A stretch of 64,000 bases of DNA, from the NCBI RefSeq assembly GCF_016612535.1, contig NZ_JAENXS010000002.1, positions 1,116,001 through 1,180,000 of the forward strand, written 5' to 3'. A program made the translations under genes and the position numbers. The notes under the pieces were generated by a model. That model did not search any database and was not told where the DNA came from. It saw nothing but the letters and a program-made list of their open reading frames with translations. Of the stretch, positions 37,656 through 59,434 are shown in pieces; the stretch's first letter is position 1, and every line of letters begins with the position of its first letter. This stretch comes from Bradyrhizobium diazoefficiens. Its GTDB lineage: Bacteria; Pseudomonadota; Alphaproteobacteria; Rhizobiales; Xanthobacteraceae.

Positions 37656-38419
37656 AAGTCCGGCCCGCCCATCAGCTCGACCGGCGTGTGTCCGGCGGCC
37701 GCCTTGGCGGCGCGCTTGCCGAGATAGGCCTCGATCACGGCGGGGTTGGAGGTGACCTCGCGCGGAGAGCCGCGGGCGATCTCCTTGCCCTGGTGGAACA
37801 CCATGACGCGGCTTGCGAGCGACATGATCACCTCCATGATGTGCTCGACGATGACGAGCGTGATGCCGGACCGATGGATGTCGCGGACGAGATCGATGGC
37901 GAGCTTCACCTCATGTGCGTTGAGGCCGGCCATGGCCTCGTCGAGCAGCAACACTTTTGGCTCGGTCGCGAGCGCGCGCGCAATCTCCAGCCGCTTGCGA
38001 CCGGGCGTGCCGAGCGAGCGCGCCGGCGCATCCGCGAGCCGGCTCATGCCGACGCGTTCCAGCACCGCGCGCGCCTTGACTTCGGCGTCCTTGCGATGCG
38101 CGCTGCGCAGGAAGGCGCCGATCATGACGTTTTCCAGCACCGTCATGCCCTCGAAAGTCTGTGGCACCTGAAACGTACGGGCAAGGCCGAGCCCGGCACG
38201 CAGCTCCGGCGTGGCGTCGGTGATGTCGCGCCCCTCGAACAGCACGCAGCCGGAGGTGGTCTTGAGATCGCCGGTGAGGCAATTGAAGAAGGTGGATTTT
38301 CCCGCGCCGTTCGGGCCGATCAGGCCGAGAATGTCGCCCTGCTCCAGCGTCACGGAGGCATCGTCCACCGCCTTGAAGCTGCCGAACGCTTTGGTAATTC
38401 CGCGTGCCTCAAGGAGCAT
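37652..38419 (-). CDS. livG: Branched-chain-amino-acid-type ABC transporter ATPase LivG
   Basis: The 255-residue ATPase has Walker A GPNGAGKST, Walker B VLLLDEAMAGLNAHE, and the C-terminal GSPREVTSNPAVIEAYLGKRA helix that marks LivG. The signature is unusual: where most have LSYG or LSGG, the sequence reads PARSLGTPGRKRLEIARAL. It overlaps the 3' end of livM by 11 bp and livF by 4 bp. Confidence 0.92.
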   Translation of the reverse strand: MLLEARGITKAFGSFKAVDDASVTLEQGDILGLIGPNGAGKSTFFNCLTGDLKTTSGCVLFEGRDITDATPELRAGLGLARTFQVPQTFEGMTVLENVMIGAFLRSAHRKDAEVKARAVLERVGMSRLADAPARSLGTPGRKRLEIARALATEPKVLLLDEAMAGLNAHEVKLAIDLVRDIHRSGITLVIVEHIMEVIMSLASRVMVFHQGKEIARGSPREVTSNPAVIEAYLGKRAAKAAAGHTPVELMGGPDL

Positions 38420-39380
38420 GGCTTGCTCCCGTGTCTGAAGTCCGCTTGCTCTGCCGCATGAACAGGCTGAGCAAACCGCTGGGCTGGAAGCGCGCGATCA
38501 GCACGATGATCGCGCCATAGAGCACGAAGGTGAGCCCTGCTCCCCTGCCGCCGAGCCAGCTGTTGGAAATCTCCTCCAGCGGCACCAGGATCGCCGCGCC
38601 GACCAGCGGCCCGAACAACAGTCCAGCTCCGCCCAGCGCCGCCATGATCAGGATCTTCACCGAGATCAGAGTGCCGAACCCGGACTCTGGATCGACGAAG
38701 CCGAACATCATCGCATAGAGCGCGCCGGCGACGCTCGTCAGCGCAGCGCTCAGCATATAGGCATAGAGTTTCGTGCGGCTGGCCGGCGCGCCGAGCGAGC
38801 GCGCGGCGCGCTCGGAATCCTTGATCGCGCGCAGGTAAAATCCCATCCGGCTGTTGGTCATCCACCAGGTGATGAGCAGCGTGATCGTGAGGACGACAAG
38901 GAAGAGATAATAATACGGCAGCGACGACAGGAACGAGAGATCGAAGATGTTGCGCGGCACGGTCGGCCCCGAGAGGCCGACGGCCGCACCCAACCAGTCG
39001 GTATTGGTGACGATCAGCCGCATCGTCTCGGCGACCGCGATCGTCGCCATGCTGAAATAGTGACCTGACAGCCGCAGCGTTGGCACGCCGATGATTGCAG
39101 CCAAGCCTACCGCCACCACGATGCCGCCGGGAATACCGAACAGCGGCGACAGGCCGAATTTGGCGTAGGACCCCATCGCAGCATAGGCGCCGCAGCCGAA
39201 GAATACGACATGGCCGACCGAGACCTGACCGGCATAGCCGCCGACGATGTTCCAGGCAGACGCAGCGATCGCATAGAGCAGCACCAGCGCACCGAGGCGC
39301 TGCTGGAACGGCGAGGACAGCAGCAGCGGATAGGCAATCGCCACCGCTGCGACGACCGAAAGCCAGATCAGGCGCCGCAT
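38409..39380 (-). CDS. livM: Branched-chain-amino-acid-type ABC permease LivM
   Basis: The inner-membrane permease of about 323 residues has the LivM cytoplasmic loop (RAIKDSERAARSLGAPASRTKLYAY, given here as landmark positions near 195-220) and eight or more spans. Both a GTG (39383) and an ATG (39380) are possible starts; the ATG is better spaced from GGGGAA. The start codon itself looks like the last, degenerate unit of a 14-bp repeat that fills the gap after livH. Confidence 0.9.
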   Translation of the reverse strand: MRRLIWLSVVAAVAIAYPLLLSSPFQQRLGALVLLYAIAASAWNIVGGYAGQVSVGHVVFFGCGAYAAMGSYAKFGLSPLFGIPGGIVVAVGLAAIIGVPTLRLSGHYFSMATIAVAETMRLIVTNTDWLGAAVGLSGPTVPRNIFDLSFLSSLPYYYLFLVVLTITLLITWWMTNSRMGFYLRAIKDSERAARSLGAPASRTKLYAYMLSAALTSVAGALYAMMFGFVDPESGFGTLISVKILIMAALGGAGLLFGPLVGAAILVPLEEISNSWLGGRGAGLTFVLYGAIIVLIARFQPSGLLSLFMRQSKRTSDTGASHAP

Positions 39381-39391
39381 CACATCTTCCC

Positions 39392-39447
39392 CATCAGGAC
39401 TTGCTCATCAGGACTTGCCCATCAGGTCTTGCCCATCAGGCCCTGTG
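39392..39447. repeat. Four tandem 14-bp repeats at the livH/livM junction
   Basis: Units start at 39392, 39406, 39420 and 39434, with consensus CATCAGGACTTGCC. On the coding (minus) strand each unit contains TGATG, a stop-start overlap. The livH stop lies in the third unit, and livM begins with a fifth TGATG just after the first unit, in register with the same period. Confidence 0.85.
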
Positions 39448-40285
39448 GCCGGAACCAGAGGAAGAACAGGAACAGGACATAGACGACGATGTCCTTGTAG
39501 ACCGCGCCGATCAGATAGCCCGAGAGCGACTCGATCACGCCGATCAGGAGGCCCGCGACCAGCGCGCCCGGCACGCTGCCGAAGCCGCCGAGCGAGACCG
39601 TGACGAAGGCAACGATGCTGAGCGTCTCGCCGACGGTCGGCACGATGTAGAAGAAGTTCGCGATCAGCGCGCCGGCCAGCCCCGTGGCACCGGCCGCAAT
39701 CGCCCAGGCGATGGCCTGCATGGTGTCGGGCCGGATCCCCATCAGCTGGGCCGCGGTCTGATCCTCCGCCACTGCCAGCATCTTCGAGCCGAGCGAGGTG
39801 CGCGTCAGCAGGAGATGCAGGCCGAGCGTCACCAGCAACGCAACCACACCGGCAAGCAGCCGCGAGGCCTCGATGCGCAGGCCCGCAAACGCATACGTGC
39901 CGCCGACGATGTCCTGCGGCATCGACAGGAAATTGGCGCCGAACCACCAGAACACGGAATAGCGCAGCAGCAGCGCCAGCCCGAAGGTGCCGAGGATCTG
40001 CGCCAGCATCGGCCCCTTCATGATGTCGCGGATCAGCGCGAAGTAGACGACCACGCCGACGGTGGCGAGCACCAGCGTTGCGAGCGGCGCACCGAGAAGC
40101 GGCCCGCCCCCCATCAGGATGTAGACGACATAGGCGACGTACATGCCGAGCATGACGAAATCGCCATGCGCGAAATTGACGATGTTCATCATTCCCCACA
40201 CCAGCGTGAGGCCCGAGGAAAACAGGGCGTAGACGGCGCCAAGCAGAAGCCCGCCGACGATCACCTGGACGAGTACAAAGGACAT
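39422..40285 (-). CDS. livH: Branched-chain-amino-acid-type ABC permease LivH
   Basis: The permease of about 287 residues begins MSFVLVQVIVGGLLLGAVYAL and has the LivH landmarks GMMNIVNFAHGDFVMLGMY and the loop LLLTRTSLGSKMLAVAEDQTAAQLMGI. The ATG at 40285 is preferred over a TTG seven codons upstream. Its last residues (GLMGKT) and stop codon lie in a 14-bp tandem repeat. A strong hairpin precedes it, after the binding-protein gene. Confidence 0.9.
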   Translation of the reverse strand: MSFVLVQVIVGGLLLGAVYALFSSGLTLVWGMMNIVNFAHGDFVMLGMYVAYVVYILMGGGPLLGAPLATLVLATVGVVVYFALIRDIMKGPMLAQILGTFGLALLLRYSVFWWFGANFLSMPQDIVGGTYAFAGLRIEASRLLAGVVALLVTLGLHLLLTRTSLGSKMLAVAEDQTAAQLMGIRPDTMQAIAWAIAAGATGLAGALIANFFYIVPTVGETLSIVAFVTVSLGGFGSVPGALVAGLLIGVIESLSGYLIGAVYKDIVVYVLFLFFLWFRPQGLMGKT

Positions 40286-40318
40286 GAGCCGCGTTGCTCT
40301 GATCAAATCATCCCGGGA

Positions 40319-51355: not shown

Positions 51356-52477
51356 TCACTGAACCAGCGGATTGGAAAATCCTGCCGCGAGCTTGACGAG
51401 GTCGGCCTGGCGGCTCGTACCGGTCTTGGCGAACACACGATGCAGATGCGTCTTCACCGTCGTCTCTGCGATTCCGAGCGCGTCGGCCGTCTCCGGCACG
51501 CCGCCGACGTCGACAATGGACAGCAGAACCCTGAGCTCCGCTGGTGTCAATTCGAACGTACGGTCGATCAGGCCTGCGCAGGAGCGAGCATCGATCGTCG
51601 CCTTCCAGACGAACAAGGCTCCAACAGCGCCGCACGCGTGCCCTGGTCCACGTTCACGAAGAAGCGACGGCAGCGCGATGATTTGCGCGATATAGTGAGA
51701 TCCGTCGTGTGAGGTCAGTTGAATATTTCGGCCCGCGGCCGCCGCGACGGCGACCTCTCCTTCGTCGCGGAAGATGTCGCGTAAGGCCGCATTCGCGCCG
51801 GACGACCTTGCCACGAGCCGGCCGGCGACGGACCGCAAGACATCGTTGGCCGCCAGGATCGCGTCCGCAGCCGGATTGCTGTGGACGATGTTGCAGGCGG
51901 CATCGAGCAAAATCACACCCGCATCAAGCCGATCCACGACGTCGGCAAGCGCGACTGACCTCTGGCGCTTCTGCTCGACCGCTCGGTTGATCATCAGAGC
52001 CCGGCTTGCATGGGGAACGATGAGCTGCATTCGCGCGCGCATCTTGGCATCGAGCATCTCCCTGCCCGGGATGACCGTCATCAAGATCGGGCATGGCGAA
52101 TTCGACTGCTCCAGCACGACATTGGCGACGTCGGCGCATCCTTGGGGACGCAACCATTCCTGGTAGAAGCGCCCGCGACGATATTCGTCGAAATTCACGA
52201 GATCGGGAATGTTGCGGACCTCGCCGTAGCGGGGCAACCTCGCGAGCGGGTCATGCTGCGCGTATTCGTCGGCATAGAGCTGGATATAGTGCGGATCGAC
52301 CCCACAATAATAATGCGTCGATCCCGTCTTGCTGACCTTATCCTTCGAAATCAGGCCGCAGGCCTGGCTGCCCAAGAACTCATTAAGCATGACAACGATG
52401 CCAGCCCACAATTCAGGATTGAGGCCGGCGTCGTAGATGCTCTCGATCAAGTCTGAGTGCTTTGCAGTCAGCGGCAT
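51356..52477 (-). CDS. LuxR-type (GerE helix-turn-helix) regulator, intact paralogue 1
   Basis: The 373-residue protein begins MPLTAKHSDLIESIYDAG. An N-terminal sensor-like domain comes first, then a PAS-like middle (VDRLDAGVILLDAACNIVHSNPAADAIL, around residues 183-210), and a C-terminal LuxR/GerE domain (LTPAELRVLLSIVDVGGVPETA, then GIAETTVKTHLHRVFAKTG). It shares this whole architecture with the broken paralogue at 52590-53775 and the more distant one at 58280-59434. The ligand is unknown; there is no luxI-type synthase nearby and the sensor is not an acyl-homoserine-lactone domain. Confidence 0.85.
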   Translation of the reverse strand: MPLTAKHSDLIESIYDAGLNPELWAGIVVMLNEFLGSQACGLISKDKVSKTGSTHYYCGVDPHYIQLYADEYAQHDPLARLPRYGEVRNIPDLVNFDEYRRGRFYQEWLRPQGCADVANVVLEQSNSPCPILMTVIPGREMLDAKMRARMQLIVPHASRALMINRAVEQKRQRSVALADVVDRLDAGVILLDAACNIVHSNPAADAILAANDVLRSVAGRLVARSSGANAALRDIFRDEGEVAVAAAAGRNIQLTSHDGSHYIAQIIALPSLLRERGPGHACGAVGALFVWKATIDARSCAGLIDRTFELTPAELRVLLSIVDVGGVPETADALGIAETTVKTHLHRVFAKTGTSRQADLVKLAAGFSNPLVQ

Positions 52478-52589
52478 TGGAAGAACCAATAGTCAGATGC
52501 CCAAATACGAAACGCTCCTCATGCCCGGCGGCTTCTCAGGAGTCGGTCGAGGGGCCAATAGGTTCAAAGTTCCAGCGCCAATTAACCAG

Positions 52590-53775
52590 CTAGTTGACAA
52601 GCGGATTGGAGAATCCGGCCGCGAGCTTGACGAGGTCCGCTTGACGCGAGACGCCCGTCTTGGCGAACACGCGATGCAGATGCGTCTTCACCGTTGTCTC
52701 CGCGATTCCGAGCGCGACGGACGTCTCCGGAACGCCGCCGACCTCGACGATCGACAGGAAAACGCGCAGTTCCGCCGGGGTCAGGTCGAAGGCCCGCGCT
52801 ATCAGCTCACCATAGGAGTGCCCACCAAGCGTGACCTTGCGCAGCAGCAGCGCGCCGACCGCATCGGTCGACCGCTCGCTGCCATTACGCAGCACCGACG
52901 ACAGCGGCAGGATATGCGCGACGTAGCGCTCGCCGTTGGAAGAAAGCAGCGGGATCGCACGCCCTCCTGGAGCAAGCGAGGTCATGTCGCGGCGGGCCGC
53001 AAAGACCTCGCGCAGCGTCTGATTGGCCTCGGCGTGGAGCAAGCGAGGTCATGTCGCGGCGGGCCGCAAAGACCTCGCGCAGCGTCTGATTGGCCTCGGC
53101 GCCGCTGGTCACAAGCTGGCCCGCAGCGACGCGGACCACGTCATCGGCCTCGATAAGCGCGCAGCCGCTCGCATTGGCGTGCACAACATGGCAGCAGGAA
53201 TCGAGCAGGAAGATGCCGGACGATAGATTGTCCAGGACATCGGCGAGCGCCGTGGCCAATGTCAGCTTCGAGCTGATCGCCCGGTTGACGAGCAGCGCGC
53301 GGCTGGCGTGCGGCACGATCAGCGACATTCGATGTTTCATCTTCGCGTCAACCATGCGCCGCCCCGACAGCACCGTCATCATGACCGGGCAGCTCGCGTT
53401 CGAGTTCTCGAGCACGACATTGGCGGCGTCGCCGCATCCCTGCGGCCGCATCCATTCCTGATAGAAGCGCCCGCGGCGATATTCGGCGAAATTGACGAGG
53501 TCGGGAATGCCTACGATCTGGCCGTGTGGCGGCAGGATCGTCAGCGGGTCGAACTTGGAATGCGTCTCTGAATAGAGCTGGATGTAGTGCGGATCCGCCC
53601 CACAATAATAATGCGTGACGCCGAACTTGCTGATCGAGTCCTTGGAAAACAAACCGCAGGCCTGACCACCGACGAAATCGCGGATGCCGACGACGACATC
53701 GTTCCACAGCGACGGATCGAGGCCTGCATCGTAAATGGACTCGACCAGGTCGGGCAGCTTGCGCGGTCTGTGCAT
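52590..53775 (-). pseudogene. LuxR-type regulator paralogue 2, frameshifted by a 67-bp tandem duplication
   Basis: The N-terminal part starts MHRPRKLPDLVESIYDAG and is intact to SGAEANQTLREVFAARRDM. The same stretch then repeats in another frame (HAEANQTLREVFAARRDM) and continues to a normal GerE end (LTPAELRVFLSIVEVGGVPET to GFSNPLVN). The cause is an exact 67-bp tandem duplication at 52968-53101. Since 67 is not a multiple of 3, the frame is lost before the DNA-binding domain. With one copy removed the span is 1119 bp, a 372-residue protein, one shorter than paralogue 1. As it stands, a truncated sensor without helix-turn-helix would be made. Confidence 0.88.
52968..53101. repeat. Perfect 67-bp tandem duplication inside a regulator gene
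   Basis: Copies occupy 52968-53034 and 53035-53101 with no mismatch; both begin TGGAGCAAGCGAGGTCATGT. Exact identity points to a recent event and allows precise loss by slippage or recombination. Confidence 0.95.
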
Positions 53776-53921: not shown

Positions 53922-56531
53922 TTAGAACGCGACGCGAAGCCCCCCTTTTGCGGTTCCAGTGCGGCTCTGGTCGGACATCACCATGCCCTCCACGGCACCG
54001 AACACCGACACGTTTTGAGTGGTCCGGTAGTCCAAACCGAGGCCAGCGACCGCACCGACGGTGCTGCGGCTGCCGGGCGTGATGAAGGAGAGGTTCTGAC
54101 CGAGCAGCACCGTGTTGATGCCGGTGTCGCCCACGCGCTGGAGCGCGATCACGCCGCCATGGATATTGGCCTTGAGCTCGCCGCCGTCGAGCTGCGTCAC
54201 CCGGGAGAGATCGACCTCGCCGCGTTCTTCGAAGTCCTGGAGCGTGCGGCTGCCGACCGACAAGCCCTGCGCGGAACCGCTTTCACTGTAGCCATCGAAC
54301 CGGCCAGCGACATAGCGCAGCCGCGCCGTCGGCGTCAGCAGGTAGCCATTGCCGACATCGAGCTTGTAGCCATAGGCGACCTCCGGGCTGATGTACCAGC
54401 CGCTGTAATTGGCGGCCGCCGTCTCCATGCCGCCAGCGACCGCATCATTGAGCACCCGTCGCCGCGACTTGTTGTCGGCATTGCCGCCCTGGACGGTGAA
54501 GTCGAAGAACTGCGAGACCCATTCGAAGCGGCTGTAAGCGCCGGCGAACACGTAACTGGTGTCGACCGTCTGCGAGTCGAGCGCGACCGAGAGGCCACCC
54601 TGCCCGCCGCCGAGGAAGGCACCGATCAGCCAGTTCGGCTGCACCATGCGGTCGATGCCGATGGCGCCGCCCCAGGCCGTCGAGGTCGCGCGCAGGGTCA
54701 AGGCGGTCTCGTCCTGGATGCGCTGACCGCCAAAACTGTTGGCCCAGACCGTGATTGGCGCCGGATCGGTCCAGAGGCTTTTCGGCGCCTTGGTGAAGGG
54801 GCCGGCCTGCGTAGCCTCCGGCGCATAGGCCATCGCCATCATGTTGCTCCCGCCTGCGCCGATGCCGCTCAAGCGGCCTTGCACGAGCGAGGACACGCCG
54901 CTGGTAAAGTCCATCAGCGTGCGGTCGGTCTGCGCCAGTGCGGTGGGATCGAGGGTTGCGAGCGTGGTACCGGAGAAAACCGATGGACCGTTGAAGCCGC
55001 CGCCTGAGACGTTGGTGTTAATTGTACCATTGAAGTTCACGAAGGTCGGCAGGTCGATCGTCGTCAGCGACGATACCCTGCTGCTCAACGGGATGAAGTT
55101 GACGTTGACGACGTCGTTGCCGAAGCCGAAATCGACCACGCCGTTGATCCTCGAGTCGGGCAGCAGCGTCAGCGTATCGGCCGCACTCGATAGCTTGATC
55201 GCGGTACCGCCGGTGCCGGTAATCGTGCCGGAATTGGTGATCGTCGCTGCGTCTGACGACAGGATGCCGACGTTGCCTGTTATGAATCCGGCGTTCCTGA
55301 CATTCGCGTTGGTCCCGACAATTCCGGTACCGTTGCTAGCCGTGGCCTGAATGAGACCGGTATTGCTCACATTGGCCTGGTTTGCGGAGATGGCCGCCAC
55401 CGAGCCAGATATGGTCCCCGCATTGACGACGTTTACGACATTCGAATGAGTATCGGCCTGGATGCCGTATACAGCGCTCGTGATAGTCCCGGTGTTGCGA
55501 ACCGTTACGTCTCCGGCGACCGCCGCGATCGCATCGCCCGACGTTCCGGTGATTGTACCGGCATTGTCGATGACGGCAGAGGCGTTGACGAAAACGGCGA
55601 CGTTACCACTCACGCTGCCGCCGGCGAGGTTCGTCAGCTTCACGTTCCCGGCCTGGATACCAACCGCAGCGCCGGAAATGGTTCCGGAATTAGCGACATC
55701 GGCAAGGTTGGTGGCAATGACCGCGTCGGCACCGCTGACCGTGCCGGAGGCAAGATTCAATAGGTTGACGTCCTGGCCGGATACGCCGAACGCGTAACCA
55801 ATGATGCTGCCCGCGTTTGCGACTGTCGCCAGACCGGAGGCCTGAATCGCGCCACCGCTTGCCGCAATCTGTGAGACGACGCCGGAGCTATTATTGGTGA
55901 TGTTGAGGGCACCGCCGGTAATGCCGCCCGCATCTCCCGAGATCGTCCCGGTGTTCGATGTCAGATTCACCGTATCGCCATTGATCCCGACGGTATTGGG
56001 CCCGATGCCGACAATCGTGCCGGAATTACTCACGTTCGCGATCCTGGCTTCGATGCCACTACCACCCGCGCCGGCCTCGCTCACGATCGTGCCCGCGTTG
56101 GCGATGTCGAGGGTTGAGGCTGTGATTGCGTGAAAACCCTTGATCGTGGCTCCGCTGAGGTTCGAGATGGTCATATCACCACCTGCAATGCCGGCCGAGA
56201 ACGTTCCCCTGATCGTCCCGGCGTTGATAATGACGCTGTCATTGCCGGTCTCGAAGCCGAAGAACGTTCCGCTGACGGTCACTCCCGACGAGACCTCATA
56301 GGTATTGTTCCTGTCGTTGCGCGTTCCGTAGCCCGTGCCATTGCCTTGCTGGTTATCGGTGTCGCTCGCGCATACGACGGTCGCGTTGCTGACCGGTGCC
56401 GCCGGCGTGCAGGCCGCCTCCGCCCGCTCGATCATACACAACGGTATGACGATCACCGCTGGCACCAGAACGCACGTCGACCGCCGCACCACACGCCATC
56501 GTGCCACACCGCCCAGAGCCGTCACATTCAT
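53922..56531 (-). CDS. Autotransporter-like outer-membrane protein with NxGTI repeats
   Basis: The 869-residue protein has an export signal ([22 protein letters not shown]), then a passenger of about 480 residues built of repeated N-x-G-T-I turns ([45 protein letters not shown] and others) that should form a beta-helix. The C-terminal 280 residues are an autotransporter barrel ending in Phe (KGGLRVAF). GAGGAACTGGAA precedes the ATG at 56531; a longer frame is open. It is probably a surface adhesin. A perfect 24-bp palindrome is centred 68 bp upstream of the start. Confidence 0.88.
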
Positions 56532-56586
56532 TTCCAGTTCCTCGGTCGCCGCCATCCAGCCCCACGGGCGTAAGCACGTTGCTACC

Positions 56587-56610
56587 GGCCTCCTCCGATC
56601 GGAGGAGGCC
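56587..56610. promoter_or_regulatory. Perfect 24-bp palindrome P2 upstream of the autotransporter gene
   Basis: GGCCTCCTCCGA is followed by its exact inverse, with GATC at the centre, about 68 bp upstream of the start at 56531. Its core is almost the same as P1 (53835-53854), at nearly the same distance from a start codon. A dimeric regulator site is the most likely reading. Confidence 0.65.
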
Positions 56611-56747
56611 GTCACAGCGAACCCTGAATCGCTGAACGCCAAGGTAGAAAGGACCGTCGCTTCCGGCTTGGACGGAAGCGACCGGGTCGCGGCTCAGAGC
56701 GAACTGACGCTCTTTCGCTCACCACTGATGCGGAGTTGCGACACCGC

Positions 56748-57079: not shown

Positions 57080-58054
57080 TCACTCCGCCGTGCCGCTCCT
57101 GACGTCACTCGGCGTGGCGTTATAGGCCCGCCGGAAACAGCGATTGAAATAGGAGAGATCGCCGAAGCCGACGTCATAGGCGATCGACGAAACCGGACGC
57201 TCGGCGAATTCCGGTTCCCGCAACATGCGGTGGGCACGCTTCAGGCGCTGCTCAATCAGGAAGGAGGAAAACGTCTTGCCGTCGGCCTCGAACAGGCGCT
57301 GGAGGTAACGCGGCGTGACGCCGAGCTCCTGCGCGACGCCGGCGACCGACAGGTCCTGCCGCGCGCAATTGTTGACGATCAGGAACTTGGCCTTGCGCAA
57401 GCGGGCGACTTTCCCGCCACGTTGGCCAGCGCTCTCCCTGGCGTCGTCCATCGGGCCGAGCACGAGAGCCAGGAGATCATGCAGATGCCCGGCCCCGAGC
57501 TGACGCAGCGCGGCGGTTGCAAGCCCGTTCTCACGGACAAGCGACGTGGCGTAGTCGACCAGAACCCTGATCTCGGTCTGACGGTGGCGGATGATACGCA
57601 TGACCGCATCCTCGACATCCATGATCATCGGCACGAGAACCCGCCGCGGCACGAGCAGAGAGAAGCAATCGCCGGCCAGAAGTCGCTCGAACACAGCCAC
57701 GTCTTCGGCGCTAGTCAGCGCGGCCTCGCCAGGGCCGAGCAGCAGTTCGCGACCTCGCGCAGATATCCCGACCGCTCCGGATCGATTCACGACCAGGGCA
57801 AGACTGTCGTCACCGTCGATGGTCAGTTCCTTCGTCCGAATGATGCGCGCTCCAAACAGCCTTCCGGTCAGCAGTTGGGCTCCCGGCAGAGCATAGGCGG
57901 CGAAGGTCGCCTCAAACGGCTGTCCTTCCTTCGCGTCGACCTCGGCTTTCACGACCCCGCGGCGATAGAATTCGCGCAACATGGTGATCCGCTCGCTCTC
58001 GGGAACGTCGTTTGTCGACACGTTGAGAATCGAACACTCATCCTTGCCATTCAC
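57080..58054 (-). CDS. AraC-family transcriptional regulator
   Basis: The 324-residue protein has an N-terminal cupin-like sensing part of the AraC_binding_2 type (LTIDGDDSLALVVNRSGAVG, LLGPGEAALTSAEDVAV) and two C-terminal helix-turn-helix units (LSVAGVAQELGVTPRYLQRLF and VSSIAYDVGFGDLSYFNRCFRR). The GTG at 58054 is chosen because GGAGAG lies 6 nt before it. The frame is open for 56 more codons, but those have no clear start signal. Its target is unknown; the nearest candidates are the DUF6894 and autotransporter genes downstream. Confidence 0.85.
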   Translation of the reverse strand: MNGKDECSILNVSTNDVPESERITMLREFYRRGVVKAEVDAKEGQPFEATFAAYALPGAQLLTGRLFGARIIRTKELTIDGDDSLALVVNRSGAVGISARGRELLLGPGEAALTSAEDVAVFERLLAGDCFSLLVPRRVLVPMIMDVEDAVMRIIRHRQTEIRVLVDYATSLVRENGLATAALRQLGAGHLHDLLALVLGPMDDARESAGQRGGKVARLRKAKFLIVNNCARQDLSVAGVAQELGVTPRYLQRLFEADGKTFSSFLIEQRLKRAHRMLREPEFAERPVSSIAYDVGFGDLSYFNRCFRRAYNATPSDVRSGTAE

Positions 58055-58279
58055 TGCAATCTCTCCAATCGACGAGCAGTCTGGGCCATGCGCCGTCGTC
58101 TTCTCGCACCCGTATCCGGTGCTCCCGCGCATTGGTGGCGTGCATGGCCCTTCCCATTCCAGAAAACGCCTATACGAAAGTATCAAATGACAAGCGTCAT
58201 ACGTTCGGAGGACGAATGTCACCTGGCCTTCACAATGGATTGAGATCGCGCAATCTCGCAGCGCACGATGTGAATTGGA

Positions 58280-59434
58280 TCACACGGCGTCGTCTGGGTC
58301 GGTCGGCGGCGCGAAGGGAACGGCAAATCCGGCCGCGATCTTGACGAGATCGGCTTGCCTGCCGGCACCAGTCTTCTCGAACAGGCGACCGAGATGCGTC
58401 TTCACCGTCGTCTCGGCAATTCCGAGCTTCGCCGCGATGTCGGGAACTCCGCCGAGCTCAACGATGGCCATCAGGACGCGGAGTTCAGACGGTGTCAGCC
58501 TGAAGGCTGCGGCGATCGCGTCCGGCGCAAGCTGGGGCGCCATTGAGGCGTTTTGAAAGAACAGCACCGTAGTTGCCCCATCGCGTTGCAGGCTGCGTTC
58601 GTGCGTCAGCGAAAAGGCGCGGGCGAGATAGTGCTGGCCGTCGGCCGACGTCATGAGCTCGATCCTGCGGCGATCGGCCGAACAGGTTCCGTCGTCAGCG
58701 ACAACGTCGAAGAGGCTGCGGAATATTTTGTCTGCCTGGGTGTTGCGGACCACGATGCGATCACCGACGATCACGAGGAGATTGCCGTCGGCGAGCATTT
58801 GCCGACAGGCCGCGTTGGCATGAACGACCCGTCCCTCCGCGTCGAACAGGCAGATCGCCGTGCTCAGGCAATCGAGCACTTGCGCGAGGTCGGCTACGGT
58901 GTGCGAGCGAGCCCTGATCTGCCGACCCATGACGCGCGAGCGCTGGATGTGCGGGGCAAGCAACCGCAGGCGCTCGCGCATCGAATCATCGACGTTACCG
59001 CGCGACCTGCCGCGCATGACCTGAAGGATCGTCGTGCGCGCATCCGATCGCTCGAGCGCGACGGTCGCGAGATCGATCGCGCCCTGCGGTTCCACCCACT
59101 CGCGATAGAAGTTCGAGGCCACGAAGTCCGAATAGGGCATGACATCGGCGACGCCGATGGTCTGTTCGACGGGTAAATTGAGGTGACGGTCGAGCAGAGG
59201 ATCAAGCTCGACATATCGGTCCCGATAGAGATCGCGGAAGCGGGAGTCCGTTCCGTGGTGCTCGTGGATTTCGATCGAGAGCCTGGCTGCGTCGCGCGAG
59301 AGAATGGTCACGGCGGAGCCGCCGACGAAACCCGCAACCTGTTCCAGAGCAGCGCTTCGCTGCGCGGGATCGACTGCCGCATCGTAGATCTCGCCGACGA
59401 GCGAGGAGAACCTGTGCGCCTCGAGGATCGTCAT
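58280..59434 (-). CDS. LuxR-type (GerE helix-turn-helix) regulator, paralogue 3
   Basis: The 384-residue protein has the same three-part plan as the two regulators at 51-54 kb: a sensor-like N-terminus (SSLVGEIYDAAVDPAQRSAAL), a PAS-like middle (LDCLSTAICLFDAEGRVVHANAA), and the GerE domain (LTPSELRVLMAIVELGGVPDIA, then GIAETTVKTHLGRLFEKTG). It is more distant than they are from each other. A start at 59434 gives the full domain. No palindrome like P1/P2 is seen upstream. Confidence 0.85.
   Translation of the reverse strand: MTILEAHRFSSLVGEIYDAAVDPAQRSAALEQVAGFVGGSAVTILSRDAARLSIEIHEHHGTDSRFRDLYRDRYVELDPLLDRHLNLPVEQTIGVADVMPYSDFVASNFYREWVEPQGAIDLATVALERSDARTTILQVMRGRSRGNVDDSMRERLRLLAPHIQRSRVMGRQIRARSHTVADLAQVLDCLSTAICLFDAEGRVVHANAACRQMLADGNLLVIVGDRIVVRNTQADKIFRSLFDVVADDGTCSADRRRIELMTSADGQHYLARAFSLTHERSLQRDGATTVLFFQNASMAPQLAPDAIAAAFRLTPSELRVLMAIVELGGVPDIAAKLGIAETTVKTHLGRLFEKTGAGRQADLVKIAAGFAVPFAPPTDPDDAV

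Follow-up and report, generated by a model that had tools for sequence, protein, structure and literature searches.

The window analysed here, a 64,000-nucleotide stretch of Bradyrhizobium diazoefficiens DNA, contains two adjacent LuxR-type regulator genes on the minus strand, one of which is intact and the other split between two reading frames at an exact 67-bp tandem duplication. The features of this pair are listed below, with the domain limits of the PAS-like region taken from a structure model of an intact homolog of the broken gene, P0001.

51356 to 52489, minus strand: intact paralog next to the broken gene, with the same architecture and about 61% identity to P0001
53775 to 52590, minus strand: frame-shifted LuxR-type regulator gene, recognized by its tandem copies and a split tblastn match
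52885 to 53775, minus strand: open frame from the gene start, with 247 native and 49 out-of-frame residues (296 in all)
52590 to 53048, minus strand: second frame, which is open from 53048, encodes native residues 226-372 and ends at the native stop; its first TTG is at 53042 and its first ATG at 52985
53035 to 53101, minus strand: 67-bp copy that comes first in the direction of transcription, part of the exact tandem duplication
52968 to 53034, minus strand: identical 67-bp copy, second in the direction of transcription
53035 to 53259, minus strand: N-terminal portion of the PAS-like domain predicted in the P0001 model (residues 173-247), in the upstream frame
52833 to 52967, minus strand: C-terminal portion of the PAS-like domain predicted in the P0001 model (residues 248-292), out of frame with the N-terminal portion
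52620 to 52784, minus strand: GerE/LuxR-type helix-turn-helix (PF00196), matched at E 4e-06 by residues 87-141 of the downstream frame (150 residues) and passing the curated cut-off

A regulator gene split between two frames

The earlier note on this DNA had placed two exact, adjacent 67-bp copies at 52968-53034 and 53035-53101, and both tests applied agree with it: base i equals base i+67 across exactly 67 positions, and Tandem Repeats Finder reports the tandem at 100% with 2.0 copies. The proposed shift of frame upstream of the DNA-binding domain is confirmed by tblastn with P0001, which is intact, 372 residues long and 99% identical to the product of the broken gene, and which represents 17 member sequences found on 6 contigs of up to 54 kb. 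Residues 1-247 of P0001 align at 53775-53035 (99.2%), and residues 226-372 align at 53033-52593 in another frame (98.6%). Without one copy the gene measures 1186 - 67 = 1119 bp, or 372 codons and a stop, exactly as had been predicted for the one-copy form; P0001 shares this length with 10 of the 12 ortholog reading frames whose length was checked, while the remaining two have 371 residues. The restored protein was also said to be one residue shorter than that of its neighbour, which is so when the neighbour is read from its ATG (373 residues) but not when it is read from an upstream TTG (377 residues).

Translation from 53775 would pass through the 247 native and 49 out-of-frame residues and end at the stop at 52887-52885. 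The 296-residue product would be without the last PAS-like strands and without the whole DNA-binding domain, and so it should not act as a regulator. Neither piece of the gene has a further stop or frameshift, and the overlap of the two frames contains no homopolymer of five or more bases as a frameshift site.

The assignment to the LuxR-type (GerE) regulators made in the earlier note stands, given the PF00196 match above cut-off in the downstream frame; the same family is matched by all 44 members of the alignment, and homologs are named helix-turn-helix or CsgD-family regulators in their sources. With its helix-turn-helix out of frame with the N-terminal part, the window copy is a broken member of this group. 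A Pfam scan of the two pieces, of the paralog and of 44 homologs matched no autoinducer-binding family, which an AHL-binding LuxR solo would have. No family reached its cut-off in the NCBIfam search, a sequence search of solved structures returned no match, and a plasmid search returned short helix-turn-helix matches only. A literature search of partial coverage found no paper on this regulator gene by title or start of abstract.

The sensory part is visible mainly in the P0001 model, which was built from 43 sequences and has low overall confidence (mean pLDDT 60.8); Pfam PAS_8 is matched in only 7 of the 44 homologs. Residues 173-292 of the model follow a PAS-like order of strands and helices, with pLDDT mostly 70-87 and low-confidence loops. 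A good helix-turn-helix follows after residue 299, and the N-terminal ~140 residues have no confident model. The top solved matches in a Foldseek search with this model are chains of VqmA and EL222, although these matches are partial (TM 0.2-0.35, rmsd above 10 A, 14-18% identity). The P0001 model recalls these PAS-LuxR one-component regulators in its order of parts, with a predicted PAS-like domain ahead of the LuxR-type helix-turn-helix; unlike them, P0001 has an extra N-terminal region of ~140 residues. The model also qualifies the earlier idea that the duplication disconnects the sensor from the helix-turn-helix. The break does lie upstream of the helix-turn-helix, but it falls at residue 247, in a low-confidence loop within the predicted PAS-like domain rather than in the linker to the helix-turn-helix, so that the predicted domain itself would be cut.

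One could imagine that the duplication creates two working proteins, with the sensor and the DNA-binding part each acting as a separate fragment and the latter translated from an internal start codon or after re-initiation close to the stop at 52887-52885. The downstream frame, open from 53048, keeps its GerE domain intact and offers the candidate starts TTG 53042, ATG 52985 and GTG 52895, the last of which adjoins the new stop. By eye, however, none of the three is preceded by a convincing ribosome-binding site, and the split form occurs in no relative among 37 named loci and 52 close orthologs. Since the predicted PAS-like domain is cut in its middle, the edges of both fragments should unfold, and we regard functional fragments as extremely improbable.

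An autotransporter-type gene (53922-56642) lies just upstream of the broken regulator gene and is matched in 24 of the 37 orthologous loci too. A third LuxR-type paralog is found on the same strand at 58280-59434, with about 39% identity to P0001 over the part compared, and an AraC-type regulator (57080-58222) stands between it and the broken gene. Elsewhere in the window, at 39386-39440, a 14-bp unit occurs in 3.9 copies (90% matches) where two minus-strand reading frames, which we take for branched-chain amino-acid transporter permeases, meet (the end of 39422-40306 and the start of 38409-39383). These units contain a TGATG-like stop/start overlap, and a change in their number could affect how the first protein ends or is coupled to the second.

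The gene in relatives

Two surveys, which probably overlap and are not independent, place the broken gene among its relatives. Named loci were fetched by means of the paralog (59 in all), and the 37 with a P0001 match of at least 70% identity were used, the remaining 22 being dropped. In every one of these 37 loci, most of them recorded as Bradyrhizobium, the ortholog is uninterrupted, with no stop and no extra length, one of them aligning only to residue 371. In the second survey P0001 was searched against 265 genomes of the same genus at E <= 1e-120, a level at which 200 of the 265 gave no match and which heavily truncated orthologs could escape. Sixty-four other genomes matched: 52 carry close orthologs at 75-92% identity, each in one open frame, and 12 match at no better than 55-65%, which is paralog level. 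Only the genome analysed here gave a partial match (1-248). When 211 bases around the duplication were used as the query, with at most three candidates per genome scored and many of the matches lying in other genes, 64 of the 264 other genomes matched somewhere, the longest match being 108 bases, as expected for one copy, and no match in any of the 264 spanned both copies. Given this result and the single partial P0001 match, the two-copy form is private to this genome among those compared.

Breakage of other kinds does turn up in the family. At least four other homologs among 71 (P0060, P0067, P0069 and P0102) have out-of-frame tails, from which loss of this regulator gene seems to be tolerated at times, unless the tails are sequencing errors. 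Such tails fit occasional loss by different routes, or errors of sequencing, rather than one switch. The Bradyrhizobium nanningense locus (L081, 6001-6084 and 6199-7314) lacks the first regulator gene and has a short remnant matching residues 345-372 beside the paralog; the gene pair looks as if it had been partly deleted.

The gene thus has the marks of a recent pseudogene, being disrupted here, intact in relatives and little decayed beyond the disruption. We consider it probable that this is a recent, lineage-specific loss-of-function mutation, in which a spontaneous 67-bp tandem duplication limited to this strain or its immediate lineage would have inactivated one of two adjacent PAS-LuxR paralogs. 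The absence of further damage in either half indicates that the event is recent. The window differs from P0001 at four residues (97, 208, 353 and 358); at 353 and 358 it is the window that has the commonest residue (V and D) and P0001 that has a rare one. At position 97, where 120 homologs have D in 99 cases, E in 17 and A in one intact homolog, the window has A, and this D97A substitution is the one striking change in the window copy. Estimates of dN/dS between the window and 12 of the 37 orthologs are 0.12-0.19 for the first piece and 0.15-0.24 for the second, against 0.12-0.17 and 0.10-0.18 in five ortholog pairs that do not include the window. The second piece is therefore somewhat above background, and some relaxation may predate the duplication; since intact P0001 shares nearly all of the second-piece residues, most of the excess would have arisen before the break.

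Origin of the duplication

A 67-bp exact tandem is far beyond chance. A scan of the window and of 140 pieces of 20 kb from the same contig (about 2.8 Mb, counting overlaps) gave one further exact tandem with a period of at least 20, of 25 bp, and in 750,585 bases from the 59 loci of relatives no exact tandem has a period above 18 bp. The 25-bp tandem of this genome lies between reading frames and is likewise without homology at its ends.

The two copies could nevertheless be one copy in the genome, an unmerged 67-base overlap having been written twice during assembly. Exactly 2.0 copies without end homology would look just like an unmerged contig overlap, the assembly is in 14 contigs and not closed, and the gene is uninterrupted in all relatives examined closely as well as in the 99%-identical P0001. 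Against this, the site lies deep within a 3.07-Mb contig, no N was present in the 100 of the 140 pieces checked for it, and no second 67-bp tandem exists in the 140 pieces and the window, where the 25-bp repeat stands alone. The lack of any other 67-bp tandem in these pieces argues against a systematic k-mer or overlap artefact as a genome-wide pattern, a single local error aside. An assembly error of this local kind is unlikely, though it deserves to be taken seriously, and the case is a caution against calling regulators broken from single assemblies. The earlier note had named a recent inactivating mutation or an assembly error as alternatives to a switch, and with no recurrence in relatives and intact orthologs both suit the evidence better than the switch does.

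If the duplication is real, its ends bear on how it was made. Identity between base i and base i+67 extends over 67 positions and no further, which leaves no microhomology at the ends. A total lack of microhomology is unusual for duplications made by slippage. Ends of this kind suggest a blunt-end or template-switch event more than plain slippage between short repeats, although homology-free ends fit an unmerged overlap equally well as they fit end-joining or template switching. Four matches to the Ku family (PF02735) above cut-off are present in this genome (G000 C2:2968702, C1:458016, C2:1590980 and C4:186590), and in a genome with four Ku genes such ends are a possible footprint of end-joining. 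The outer ends of the duplication (52967/52968 and 53101/53102) each centre a palindrome with 4-base arms; by this definition, which was set after the ends had been viewed, palindrome centres make up 2.95% of window positions.

Reversibility and comparison with known systems

The earlier note had raised the possibility of a reversible switch, that is, selected phase variation in which the regulator is turned off by gain of a 67-bp copy and on again by its loss. As in phase-variable genes, the frame is disrupted by an exact tandem duplication, and the one-copy allele exists in the near-identical homolog P0001. As the note pointed out, one of two identical neighbouring copies could in principle be removed with precision, and replication slippage could do this here, so that rare revertants would be expected; this is, however, general to any exact tandem duplication and is no mark of a switch. 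In M. smegmatis, perfect deletions are reported to be raised about 1,000-fold over background by direct repeats, with a stronger rise without RecA-type recombination (PMC3519483). Experience in Staphylococcus aureus is mixed (PMC6686034): an agrA duplication gave no revertants, whereas revertants were obtained from an agrC duplication with inversion.

What speaks against a switch at this locus is mainly its distribution. The two-copy form was found once and recurs in 0 of 264 other same-genus genomes, the gene being open in 52 of 52 close orthologs and uninterrupted in 37 of 37 named loci, and on these counts we reject a conserved switch. There are also no short end repeats that would make a 67-bp duplication recur, and no older repeat array is present. 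The idea of a reversible switch is accordingly not upheld, and we hold selected phase variation to be very improbable. There is similarly little reason to expect bet-hedging in living populations of this lineage, in which a soil symbiont-type bacterium would gain and lose a 67-bp copy without flanking microhomology and in this way switch one of two adjacent PAS-LuxR regulators off and on. Were both alleles found in one culture, the gene would count as a regulator that varies in phase by a route other than the common simple-repeat and inversion mechanisms. As a recent loss-of-function duplication, the probable reading, the locus would instead be a clear case of young gene inactivation that is in principle precisely revertible.

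Two known systems offer the nearest comparisons. In pneumococcal capsule genes, a tandem duplication inside the reading frame reportedly abolishes the product, and the exact copies are said to be removable. Such capsule gene duplications are reported as controlling phase variation (Waite 2001, 2003, cited in PMC4022640). The likeness to the present gene lies in a tandem duplication in an open reading frame with loss of the product; the difference is that recurrence and reversion are claimed there, at least in the titles of those reports, whereas here there is one genome, one event and a regulator gene. The lrp gene of Xenorhabdus nematophila is closer in kind, since there too short tandem duplications disrupt a gene for a transcription regulator and arise spontaneously (PMC6786866). 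The spontaneous lrp mutations include tandem duplications of 26-116 bp, three of the mutants being of this type. None of eight isolates reverted genetically, although the eight were not necessarily duplications, no phenotypic reversion was a genetic reversion, and the authors conclude that this is not phase variation (PMC6786866). The lrp duplications arose in observed culture, whereas the duplication described here is seen in a genome sequence alone.
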